Origin: Brachyspira murdochii DSM 12563
GTDB lineage: Bacteria > Spirochaetota > Brachyspiria > Brachyspirales > Brachyspiraceae
NCBI RefSeq assembly: GCF_000092845.1
Contig: NC_014150.1
Span: 2,231,510 to 2,295,509 of the forward strand
DNA length: 64,000 bases
Reading direction: 5' to 3'
Below the pieces are notes generated by a model that saw nothing but the letters and a program-made list of their open reading frames with translations, made no database searches and was not told the DNA's origin. The number at the start of each line of letters is the position of its first letter. Within the stretch, counting starts at the first letter, position 1. Of the stretch, positions 26,029-50,303 are shown one piece after another. Position numbers and translations under genes: made by a program.

Positions 26029-26094
26029 TTTTAAATTCTTTCATCATTATGCTATAATATATCAAATTATATTAATTACCATACGGCAGTGTTT

Positions 26095-26853
26095 ATGAAA
26101 AAAATAAAAGTGTTAAAAACTATATTGTTAATTTCTTTATTATCAATTATTTTAATTATATCATGCAAGAAAAAAGAGGAGGCTAGTATAAGCAATAATT
26201 CTATGTATGTAAGCAGTCCAGATAATATTTATCATAAAACTTACACTAATGTTGTTAAGATACAGGGTAAATTTGTTAATATGAACTCTTCTCTCTCATA
26301 TGCTAATAGAGAAGAATGAGAATACAGCGAGGAGTATGATATATTTGAGGCTATAGAAAATCATAGCTTAAAAAGAGTAATGGAATTAATAGGAGAAGGT
26401 GAAGATATAAATCAAACTTATAGCGGTGAGAGAAAATATAGCGATTTTTTCAATGATTATTATTATCTTGACGGAGCTACTCCTTTAATGTTTGCTATAT
26501 TTTATAGAGATTTGGGTATAATGAAATATTTGCTTGATAAAGGTGCTGATCCTTATACTAAAGATGATTACCCTTACAATTGGGAAGCCTTTTTATGGGC
26601 TTGTGCTGTTGGAAATGTTGATGTAATAAAAATGATTGTAAAGTTTTATCCTGATTTAGTTAATTCTAAACATGTCTATGATGAAAACGGACTTCATATG
26701 GCTGCTTTAAATAATAATACAGAGGTATTTGAATATTTAGTTAGGGATTTAGGTATTGATATAAACAGTACAGATGAGGACGGTACTGGAGTTTTGTATT
26801 ATGCTGAAAAAGACGAGGCAATAAAAAAATTAAAAGAACTTGGTGCCAAATAA
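26095..26853 (+). pseudogene. Ankyrin-repeat lipoprotein gene broken by one TGA
   Basis: The frame encodes a lipoprotein signal (LLSIILIISCKKK), then breaks at TGA (26317-26319) after NREE and continues in the same frame through ankyrin-like repeats (ATPLMFAIFYRDLGIMKYLLDKGADPY and following) to 26853. The neighbouring paralogue at 27506 reads NREEGEYSED at this point, so the TGA most simply comes from a GGA codon. The rest of the reading frame is well preserved, which means the mutation is recent. The downstream half could restart at the ATG at 26380 but would lack the export signal. Confidence 0.85.
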
Positions 26854-27272
26854 TATAAATTGTGTAATACATTAATATATTTTAAAAATGAATAAACTAT
26901 AAAATAGCTAGAGCCTTAAATTGAGATTTTTTAATTAGGCAATTTTTATTAATAATCAATAAAAAATTGAGAGCATTTCATAAATATGCCTAAACAAATA
27001 CAATTTGTCAAAATTAATTTTTTAAATTTATTATTTGTGGGGACTAGCCCCCACACCCCCAGTTCTTTTGTTGACACAAAGAACCAAAAAGACTGCATTT
27101 TTTAGACTAAATTTAGGATATACGCTACATCTAATACGTATATATAAAATATAAAGTTCTACCAATTGCGTATTTATTAACTTTTTTTGAAGCACAAAAA
27201 AGTTAATAATTCTATATAAATTGCCTCAGTTGACAAAATTAAATCGTTACAGTATATATTTAAGATTAATAT

Positions 27273-27312
27273 ATTAAAAAATCGAGCGAGCCTTGAAGCG
27301 AGATTTTTTAAT
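27273..27312. repeat. Palindromic repeat, copy A
   Basis: An 11-bp perfect inverted repeat (ATTAAAAAATC at 27273-27283, GATTTTTTAAT at 27302-27312) encloses an 18-base loop that includes GAGCCTTGAAGCGA. The same arms and loop sequence recur at 27374. Confidence 0.7.
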
Positions 27313-27373
27313 TTTTAATGAAGCAATTTTTATTAATAATCAATAAAAATAGTGAGCGTTTCAAGATGAATGT

Positions 27374-27434
27374 ATTAAAAAATCGAGCGTCTAGCAATGT
27401 CTATTGCTAGAGCCTTGAAGCGAGATTTTTTAAT
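27374..27434. repeat. Palindromic repeat, copy B, with a nested hairpin
   Basis: The same 11-bp arms as copy A are at 27374-27384 and 27424-27434. The loop contains an extra perfect 9-bp hairpin (TCTAGCAAT at 27390-27398, ATTGCTAGA at 27403-27411) between GAGCG and GCCTTGAAGCGA, as if one palindrome had been inserted into another. Confidence 0.7.
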
Positions 27435-27505
27435 TTTTTATAGAAAATAATTTGTTTTTATTGTATAATGTTTCGTAAATTATTAATTAATATACGGCGG
27501 TGTTT

Positions 27506-28267
27506 ATGAAAAGAATAAAAGTTTTAAAAAATATATTGTTAATTTCTTTATTATCAATTATTTTTATTATATCATGCAAGAAAAAAGAAGAGGTTAGTGT
27601 AAGTATAAGCAATAATTCTGTGTATGTAAGTAATCCAGATAATATTTATCATAAAACTTATACTAATGTTGTAAAGATACAGGGCAAATTTGTTAATATG
27701 AACTCTGCCTTATCCTATGCCAACAGAGAGGAAGGGGAATACAGCGAAGACTATGATATATTTGAGGCTATAGAAAATCATAGTTTAAAGAGAGTAATGG
27801 AATTGATAGAAGAAGGTGAAGATATTGATGAGTCCTATTATGGAGATGACAGTATATACAGCGATTTTATGAATGATAGTTATGCTGCTAATGGTGCTAC
27901 GCCTTTGATATTTGCCGTATTCTACAGAGATTTAGGTATAATGAAATATCTTCTTGACAATGGGGCAGACCCTTATGTAAAAGATGATGACGGCTGGAAT
28001 TCGTTTTTATGGGCTTGCGGTACTGGAAATGTTGATGTAATAAAAATGCTTGTGCAGGCTGATCCTGATGTTGTAAACTCTAAAAATATGTATGATGCAA
28101 ATGGTCTTCATATGGCTGCTTTGAATAATAATACAGAAGTATTTGAATATTTAGTTAGAGATTTAGGTTTTGATATAAATAGTACCGATGAAGACGGAGA
28201 CGGAGTTTTGTATTATGCTGATGAAGATGATGCTATAGAAAAATTAAAGGAATTAGGTGCTGAATAA
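27506..28267 (+). CDS. Ankyrin-repeat lipoprotein
   Basis: The protein of about 253 residues has a lipoprotein signal ending in IISC (lipid-modified Cys near residue 24), a linker, and three to four ankyrin-like repeats: NGATPLIFAVFYRDLGIMKYLLDNGADPY, GWNSFLWACGTGNVDVIKMLVQADPDVVN, and NGLHMAALNNNTEVFEYLVRDLG. It is a membrane-anchored periplasmic or surface protein that probably binds other proteins. It is a close paralogue of the broken gene at 26095. Both have the same upstream context (TACGGC, then GTG and ATG), and the ATG was chosen. No SD-like site is obvious. Confidence 0.85.
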   Translation: MKRIKVLKNILLISLLSIIFIISCKKKEEVSVSISNNSVYVSNPDNIYHKTYTNVVKIQGKFVNMNSALSYANREEGEYSEDYDIFEAIENHSLKRVMELIEEGEDIDESYYGDDSIYSDFMNDSYAANGATPLIFAVFYRDLGIMKYLLDNGADPYVKDDDGWNSFLWACGTGNVDVIKMLVQADPDVVNSKNMYDANGLHMAALNNNTEVFEYLVRDLGFDINSTDEDGDGVLYYADEDDAIEKLKELGAE

Positions 28268-28649: not shown

Positions 28650-28774
28650 AAAAAATACCCCCATATTATAATGGGGGCAACAGTTTAATTAAATGAAGGT
28701 TATAAAATATAATGTATCAATTAAGGGATACAAAGTTGCTGACTACGGTAATTTTCAAGTCTTCTAACTTTTGT
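28650..28774 (-). ncRNA. Candidate small RNA of about 125 nt
   Basis: The minus strand has a near-consensus promoter (28781-28808) and an intrinsic terminator about 100-125 nt downstream: CCCCCAT/ATGGGGG at 28658-28677, followed on the minus strand by TATTTTTTATT. No credible reading frame lies between them. The predicted transcript has a 5' hairpin (CTAAC-AAAA-GTTAG) and an internal hairpin (TGTATC/GATACA). I do not recognise it as 6S, SRP or RNase P RNA. It lies downstream of, and in the same direction as, guaB, but guaB has its own terminator. The start near 28774 is inferred from the -10 position. Confidence 0.6.
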
Positions 28775-28780
28775 TAGTAT

Positions 28781-28808
28781 ATTCTAACATTTTTATATGT
28801 TTTGTCAA
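28781..28808 (-). promoter_or_regulatory. Promoter of the candidate small RNA
   Basis: TTGACA (28803-28808) and TAGAAT (28781-28786) on the minus strand are spaced by 16 bp, with no gene start downstream. Confidence 0.65.
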
Positions 28809-28837
28809 TACTATAATTGAAAAAATATATAAAAAAA

Positions 28838-28868
28838 ATCAATAATACCAAAAGATATCATTGATTTT
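28838..28868 (-). terminator. Terminator after guaB
   Basis: On the minus strand AAATCAATGATATC pairs with the complementary half of AATCAATAATACC across a short loop and runs into a stretch of seven T. It starts about 35 bp after the guaB stop codon. Confidence 0.7.
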
Positions 28869-28901
28869 TTATAATTTTTAATATTGAAGAAATAATTAAT
28901 T

Positions 28902-30041
<1,140 letters not shown>

Positions 30042-31415: not shown

Positions 31416-31949
31416 TTAAAAGTTTTCAACGCGTACTTCAAAGAATTTTTTAGCATGTTTACAAACAGGGCAAAGTTCTGGAGCTTCTTCGCTTTCAACT
31501 ATAAAACCGCAGTTTCTGCATTTCCATTGAACTTTAGTAGCTTTTTTGAAAACGCTTCCATTTTTTACAGCTTCTCTTAATTTAGCATATCTTTCTCTGT
31601 GTTCTTTTTCAACATCACCTATTAATTTCATAGAACGAGCTATTTCATCAAAACCTTCTTCAGTAGCTTCTTTAGCCATTCTTGGGTACATATTTTCGTA
31701 TTCTTCATTTTCACCTTCCCAAGCTGATTGTAAGTTTTGAAGAGTATCGCCTATACCGTTAAGATATTTGAAGTGTATTTTAGCATGCTCTCTTTCATTT
31801 TCAGCTGTTTCAAGGAAAATAGCAGCGATTTGTTCATAACCTTCATTTCTTGCTACACTTGCAAAATAAGTATATTTGTTTCTAGCCATAGATTCGCCGG
31901 CAAAAGCTTCATTTAAGTTTTTTTCTGTTTTTGTACCTTTTAAATTCAT
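31416..31949 (-). CDS. rbr: Rubrerythrin
   Basis: The 177-residue protein joins a four-helix diiron domain to a C-terminal rubredoxin-like domain. The diiron domain carries ExxH motifs in the helix with ENEREHAKIHF and the later VEKEHRERY. The rubredoxin part has WKCRNCGF and ELCPVCKH. It reduces hydrogen peroxide in the cytoplasm of anaerobes. AAAGGAG precedes the ATG, 48 bp downstream of the superoxide dismutase gene with no promoter between, so the two form an oxygen-defence operon. Confidence 0.96.
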   Translation of the reverse strand: MNLKGTKTEKNLNEAFAGESMARNKYTYFASVARNEGYEQIAAIFLETAENEREHAKIHFKYLNGIGDTLQNLQSAWEGENEEYENMYPRMAKEATEEGFDEIARSMKLIGDVEKEHRERYAKLREAVKNGSVFKKATKVQWKCRNCGFIVESEEAPELCPVCKHAKKFFEVRVENF

Positions 31950-31997
31950 TTCAATTCTCCTTTTTTAATTAAACAAAATTATATAAAATTAATAAAA

Positions 31998-32594
31998 TTA
32001 TTTAGCTGATTTAATTCTTTCTGCTACATAATCCCAATTTACCAAATGATCAACAAAAGTAGTTAAGAAGTCTGGTCTTCTGTTTTGATAATCAAGATAA
32101 TAAGCATGTTCCCAAACATCGCAAGTTAAAACACCATGTACTTTATCAGCAACTGGGTTCATAGCATTAGCATATTTTCTCACTTCTAATTTACCATTAT
32201 TCATAACAAGCCAAACCCAACCTGAACCGAATTGAGTTTTTCCTCCTGTAGTGAATGCTTCTTTAAAAGCATCAAAAGAACCGAAATCTGCTTCTATTTT
32301 TGATTTTACTTCAGCAGGTATTGCAGCATCTTTTTTTATCATTTTGAAGAACTCTTCATGATTATAAACCTGACCGGCATTATTAAATACTGCTTGTTTG
32401 TCAGCATTATTGTATGATAGAGTGATTAATTCTTCAATGCTTTTTCCTTGTAATGAAGAATCTTTAGATACTAAATCATTAAGAGTTGTTACATAAGTAT
32501 TTAAGTGCTTTCCATGGTGGAAATCCAATGTATTTGAAGACATATATGGTGCTAAGTCTTCTTTAGCATAAGGTAATTTCATTAATTCAAACAT
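31998..32594 (-). CDS. sodA/sodB: Iron/manganese superoxide dismutase
   Basis: The 198-residue enzyme converts superoxide to peroxide and oxygen. Metal ligands are visible in DFHHGKHL, in YNHEEFF, and in DVWEHAYYLDY. GSGWVWLVMNNGKL and QNRRPDFLTTFVDHLVNW are typical of the family. The segment NNAGQVYNHEEFF departs slightly from the usual NNAAQVWNHTFYW. An AAGGAG site lies about 9 bases before the ATG. It is the first gene of the sod-rubrerythrin operon. Confidence 0.96.
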   Translation of the reverse strand: MFELMKLPYAKEDLAPYMSSNTLDFHHGKHLNTYVTTLNDLVSKDSSLQGKSIEELITLSYNNADKQAVFNNAGQVYNHEEFFKMIKKDAAIPAEVKSKIEADFGSFDAFKEAFTTGGKTQFGSGWVWLVMNNGKLEVRKYANAMNPVADKVHGVLTCDVWEHAYYLDYQNRRPDFLTTFVDHLVNWDYVAERIKSAK

Positions 32595-32626
32595 ATATTT
32601 TTACTCCTTCATTTTTTATTAGTATA

Positions 32627-49916: not shown

Positions 49917-50303
49917 ATGAATAATACAAGAAACACTATACAAAAGCAAGTTATTTTAAATGCTGTAAGAGAATTGAAAAATCATCCAACTTCAGAAGAA
50001 GTTTATAATTATATTAAACCTAATTTTCCATCTATAAGTTTAGGTACTGTATATAGAAATTTAAATTTATTATCAGAAACTAAAGAAATACAAAAACTTT
50101 CGGTTATAGATGATGCAGTTCGTTTTGACCATATTACAAATGAACACTATCATTTTCAATGCAGCAAATGCAAAAAGTTATTTGATATACCTATGGAATA
50201 TCAAAAAAAGCTGGACGAATTAGTTTCAAAAGAATATGACGTAGAAGTATTGAAACATGATATAGTATTTACTGGAATATGTAAAGAATGTAAAAATTCT
50301 TAA
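49917..50303 (+). CDS. perR: Fur-family regulator, PerR-like
   Basis: The 128-residue protein has a winged-helix N-terminus (HPTSEEVYNYIKPNFPSISLGTVYRNLNLL) and a metal-binding C-terminus (FDHITNEHYHFQCSKCKKLFDIP). Two CxxC pairs (CSKC, CKEC) form the structural zinc site. The regulatory ligands include His, Asp, His, His and an Asp (LFDIP) where Fur proteins usually have Glu, a PerR-like pattern. It probably senses peroxide through iron and may control the sod-rubrerythrin operon in this window. AAGGAA precedes the ATG. Confidence 0.82.
   Translation: MNNTRNTIQKQVILNAVRELKNHPTSEEVYNYIKPNFPSISLGTVYRNLNLLSETKEIQKLSVIDDAVRFDHITNEHYHFQCSKCKKLFDIPMEYQKKLDELVSKEYDVEVLKHDIVFTGICKECKNS

Follow-up and report, generated by a model that had tools for sequence, protein, structure and literature searches.

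Iron-sparing small RNAs have been described in enterobacteria, Pseudomonas, Bacillus, staphylococci and mycobacteria, and they are mutually unrelated RNAs directed at common types of target (PMC9410917). The locus analysed here in Brachyspira murdochii resembles enterobacterial RyhB, which is repressed by Fur and dependent on Hfq, in having an iron-regulated promoter (predicted in our case), its own terminator and a conserved single-stranded core, and the Brachyspira RNA is likewise predicted to repress sodB and an Fe-S operon. RyhB has two gene copies in some species (PMC9410917), as does the Brachyspira RNA. However, the two RNAs are unrelated in sequence (no Rfam match), and the operator looks DtxR-type rather than like a Fur box. 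PrrF1 and PrrF2 of Pseudomonas are also duplicated iron-regulated RNAs with a common core, whereas the Brachyspira copies are not in tandem and lie at two separate loci (guaB and rnr). By their descriptions, FsrA of Bacillus subtilis and IsrR of staphylococci share with it an AT-rich genome and a C-containing unpaired region aimed at Shine-Dalgarno sequences, but both are Fur-repressed with C-rich pairing regions, while the Brachyspira core carries AACCUUCAU in an AU-rich stretch and not a run of C. MrsI of Mycobacterium tuberculosis is a predicted IdeR-repressed iron-sparing RNA (PMC9410917); compared by description, it is alike in being placed under a repressor of the DtxR/IdeR family, though it belongs to an unrelated phylum. 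A full-text literature search retrieved no spirochaete iron-sparing small RNA and no study of Brachyspira small RNAs, and papers beyond its coverage could exist. On the best reading of its sequence, the RNA would be a functional analogue of RyhB, PrrF, FsrA, MrsI and IsrR that belongs to a new, unrelated family.

The window, which is the whole 64,000-nucleotide stretch of the B. murdochii DSM 12563 genome that was analysed, carries the following parts of the RNA gene:

28803..28808, minus strand: -35 element TTGACA, present in nearly all relatives
28781..28786, minus strand: -10 element TAGAAT with TG just before it, conserved in relatives
28772..28789, no strand assigned: operator-like palindrome TGTTAG-AATATA-CTAACA, overlapping the -10 element and the start point
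28650..28775, minus strand: small RNA transcript of about 125 nt, its start point deduced from the -10 element
28713..28732, minus strand: hairpin TGTATC-CCUUAAUU-GATACA of the predicted fold, its stem kept in most copies
28682..28704, minus strand: UAUAACCUUCAUUUAAUUAAACU, the invariant core, which the predicted fold leaves unpaired and which is proposed to pair with targets
28650..28679, minus strand: intrinsic terminator (hairpin 28679-28656 and T tract), the sole one in 1.5 kb

The first-pass annotation had reported a minus-strand TTGACA-N16-TAGAAT promoter and, about 100 nt beyond it, a GC-rich hairpin with a T run, with no reading frame in between and no recognisable RNA family, and each of these statements was borne out. 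The two promoter elements are present at 28808-28803 and 28786-28781 with a spacer of 16 nt, and with 11 of 12 consensus matches they form the best of the 9 promoter-like matches in the 1.5 kb scanned. As a class such matches stand at chance level (9 found against 9.9 expected), so the promoter alone proves nothing. The GC-rich hairpin and T tract lie about 100 nt past the -10 element and are the only terminator found in the 1.5 kb, where 0.5 were expected. The expected start point is near 28774, and the predicted RNA of 127 nt folds better than 199 of 200 shuffled sequences (z -3.1). No coding frame was seen in the transcript region, and the RNA matched no Rfam family even at E = 5, the RyhB covariance model included. 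Two further hairpins had also been proposed. TGTATC/GATACA is retained in most species, with a loop that varies in length among copies, and is missing in two (G001 and G019); CTAAC/GTTAG (28777-28764) is probably not an RNA hairpin, as its 5' arm straddles or precedes the expected site of initiation and it overlaps the palindrome at 28789-28772, and it is better read as a pair of conserved operator half-sites.

The neighbouring guaB lies upstream of the small RNA promoter on the same strand, and its A/T-rich hairpin and T run separate the two. This hairpin (28830-28875), followed by T runs directly 3' of guaB, resembles a guaB terminator. The guaB product (28902-30023) has just 373 amino acids, which is short for IMP dehydrogenase, and may be devoid of the CBS domain pair. 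Two similar ankyrin-repeat lipoprotein genes stand in tandem at 26089-28267, the first of them fragmented (start at 26089, remainder at 26380).

We consider it likely that the locus encodes a trans-acting, base-pairing small RNA which is made in iron starvation and spares iron by pairing with the leaders of iron-protein mRNAs. When iron is plentiful, an iron-dependent repressor would occupy TGTTAG-N6-CTAACA over the -10 element and block transcription, and when iron is low, the promoter would open at the same time as the promoters of feoAB and of the flavodoxin genes. The RNA would then pair through its invariant core with iron-protein mRNA leaders: at sodB the duplex would cover the Shine-Dalgarno sequence, at rubrerythrin it would probably cover the start region, and in the isc/nif Fe-S operon it would form in the 5' leader. 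Pairing would lower the translation or stability of these mRNAs and so spare iron. The gene anatomy, the conservation, the common operator and the conserved sodB complementarity are read directly from the DNA, and from them we infer expression, response to iron, the identity of the repressor and repression of the targets.

With at most one mismatch, the genome holds 18 occurrences of the palindrome and 3 of a reversed control, and a stricter pattern gave 2-8 sites per genome in 26 genomes with no control matches. Apart from the RNA and its paralogue, it precedes FeoA-FeoB, DUF3793 with a flavodoxin, another flavodoxin, an AhpC-type peroxiredoxin, a DUF1858/DUF438/hemerythrin protein and two secreted proteins. 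Ferrous iron uptake and the replacement of ferredoxin by flavodoxin are typical of iron-starvation regulons, and the genes sharing the palindrome have, by their predicted functions, the composition of such a regulon. The DUF3793-flavodoxin operon carries two operators 44 bp apart (genome 2644069-2644130; L041:1501-1562), and this tandem pair recurs in several species.

Fur and PerR boxes have an odd-centred 7-1-7 arrangement, whereas the palindrome is even-centred with N6. The 14-bp sequence TTAGGNNNNCCTAA has been proposed as the site of a single IdeR/DtxR dimer (PMC8464063), and the operator contains TTAG-N6-CTAA with identical spacing. As the inner G/C of the IdeR half-sites TTAGG-N4-CCTAA is not kept, we infer the family of the repressor, and the genome's single DtxR/IdeR-family protein, encoded by the one such gene above the cut-off, is most likely to be it. 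The other candidate for the operator-binding protein is also encoded in the window:

49917..50303, plus strand: Fur-family regulator, the only one in the genome

It is possible, if unlikely, that this Fur/PerR-type protein reads the operator, in which case the RNA would answer peroxide or mixed iron-peroxide stress, and repression of sodB and rubrerythrin would tune oxidative defence. The presence of just one Fur-family protein, the peroxiredoxin within the regulon and the nature of the predicted targets as oxidative-stress genes agree with such a role, but TTAG-N6-CTAA fits a DtxR-type dimer and not a 7-1-7 box, feoAB and the flavodoxins indicate iron, and shutting off superoxide dismutase in peroxide stress would make little sense.

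For the iron-sparing RNA as proposed above, two candidate targets lie within the window:

31998..32594, minus strand: sodB, Fe/Mn superoxide dismutase (Pfam PF00081, PF02777), the best-supported predicted target
32596..32614, minus strand: part of the sodB leader predicted to pair with the core, made up of AAATGAAGG, which overlaps the Shine-Dalgarno sequence GAAGGAG, and of AAAATA downstream
31416..31949, minus strand: rubrerythrin, an iron protein (Pfam PF02915, PF21349), a possible second target
31964..31974, minus strand: GTTTAATTAAA, which may be a pairing site, upstream of the Shine-Dalgarno sequence of rubrerythrin, with weaker evidence

The sodB gene lies 3.3 kb from the small RNA gene. 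Its leader reads AAATGAAGGAGTAAAAATATATG, and the predicted duplex joins AAATGAAGG with CCUUCAUUU and AAAATA with UAUUUU, by which the Shine-Dalgarno sequence is covered. When the leaders of the window's genes were compared with the core, sodB ranked 2nd of 39, and the evidence is tempered because it was chosen after ranking the window's genes only. Across the sodB leaders of 25 genomes the mean duplex energy with the core was -17.7 kcal/mol, against -9.7 +/- 1.8 for 300 dinucleotide-shuffled cores, none of which reached so low a value. The median of -18.2 fell below all 105 background leaders, which were drawn from stretches not selected for complementarity. Some degree of pairing with Shine-Dalgarno sequences is to be expected of any RNA that contains CCUUC. 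The sodB pairing is modest (-14.9) in the species of the window itself, and in the B. pilosicoli clade AAATGAAGG is replaced by GTTTAATAAATAAAGG, which pairs with the other half of the core. The core is complementary to the sodB Shine-Dalgarno region in nearly all species, and sodB is a predicted target whose product may use manganese.

The rubrerythrin pairing reached z -2.6 when compared with shuffled cores. The clade of the window has a match of 11 nt, most other species match at the start codon (ATGAAGGA), and the B. pilosicoli clade has no match. In the window's genome the isc/nif Fe-S operon comprises a bfd-like ferredoxin, nifU and nifS, and its leader begins just after TATAAT with TGAAGGTTATAAAATA, a perfect 16-nt complement of the core. 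A stem AAAATAG...CTATTTT overlaps this complement (genome 823229; L165, minus strand, 1490-1600), and pairing of the small RNA at the leader would be predicted to break it. An iron-sulfur flavoprotein-like gene, with a CxxCxxC motif in its sequence, starts with ATGAAGGTTATA. Some other candidates were set aside. Exact matches to the seed AAATGAAGGTTA across the genus mostly encode Asn-Glu-Gly-Tyr in rubrerythrin, ribosomal protein L25 and BirA, and were not counted as targets because they are a codon coincidence. Pairing with bioB is confined to a single clade and does not persist in the genome of the window, and a search for Shine-Dalgarno sites of the GGAGGTTAT type gave no conserved iron target.

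Other sites complement the core almost throughout. The leader of a tetR-ABC exporter operon complements 22 of 23 nt of the core in the window's genome (duplex -28), and the complement is near-perfect in two genomes. A terminator-like hairpin AAAAGTC...GACTTTT stands directly after it (genome 2603070, plus strand, L055:1440-1600; also L129 of G008), which makes attenuation controlled by the small RNA possible at this predicted site. The same genome position was considered as a third copy of the RNA and rejected, being the tetR-ABC operon leader on the other strand. In at least five related species a near-perfect core complement also lies between two hsp20 genes:

L331, minus strand, around 995; also L092, L110, L132 and L150: hsp20 intergenic complement of about 27 nt

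The tetR leader (two genomes) and the hsp20 intergenic region (at least five genomes) each complement the entire core almost perfectly. This would suit a small RNA that is real and answers to the iron repressor proposed above, but acts mainly on other mRNAs such as these, the sodB match being a by-product of complementarity to the Shine-Dalgarno sequence. We find this rather improbable, as the tetR and hsp20 sites are limited to one clade each, while complementarity to sodB extends across the genus and is not reproduced by shuffled cores.

Among relatives, 25 of the 26 Brachyspira genomes, one per species, contain the core motif with no more than 3 mismatches, the remaining one (G003) being an assembly of 88% completeness in 990 contigs, and an exact 22-mer of the core matched in Brachyspira only when 84,980 species were scanned. 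Promoter, operator, core and terminator keep a fixed order throughout the genus while the flanks have diverged, and three parts are prominent in an alignment of 27 copies: the promoter, palindrome included; the core, UAUAACCUUCAUUUAAUUAAACU; and the terminator. The core, about 24 nt and single-stranded, is essentially invariant. The terminator stems diverge by clade (GCCCCCU, GGCUCCU, GCCCUAUC, GGCACCUUUAC and ACAUCCUUUCAC), yet when the tails were folded one by one the stem paired in every guaB-type copy despite the changed sequence. On a sequence-only alignment, in which indels displace the stem arms, RNAalifold recovered just 4 terminator pairs for that reason. Several species have the first copy downstream of guaB, and the copy of the B. 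pilosicoli clade adjoins rnr. A second, more diverged copy is present beside rnr (RNase R) in many genomes, with the hairpin and with no T run directly after it. In the second copies upstream of rnr (L002, L034-L037, L216 and L270) an A-rich stretch replaces the T run. Such copies may read through toward RNase R or terminate otherwise.

The first-pass annotation had named lack of conservation in relatives as grounds for abandoning its stand-alone small RNA gene; the RNA was found to be kept across the genus. Both its sequence and its conservation are those of a stand-alone non-coding transcript with its own promoter and terminator. By these comparisons it is a real, genus-wide small RNA gene, and it stands above chance because 25 of the 26 genomes have the promoter, the operator, the core and the terminator alike. 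That the transcript instead codes for a short conserved peptide is very doubtful: one frame is open through the core, but there is no conserved start codon, indels vary the length from about 104 to 135 nt among relatives, and the core, which has stops in two of its three frames, does not vary at any codon position. A mere chance pairing of promoter-like and terminator-like strings in AT-rich DNA, which the chance-level number of promoter-like matches here might suggest, is scarcely credible given parts conserved genus-wide in fixed order between diverged flanks and with compensating stem changes.

We give an even chance to the wider proposal that this is an undescribed family of spirochaete iron-sparing small RNAs, repressed by a DtxR-type regulator, which has independently reached the RyhB targets sodB and isc with a core frozen across the genus. 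With a genus-wide candidate that has a defined operator, core and targets, the question of convergence becomes testable in another phylum, and the locus offers a first sketch of iron control in Brachyspira, some members of which are gut pathogens of pigs and humans.
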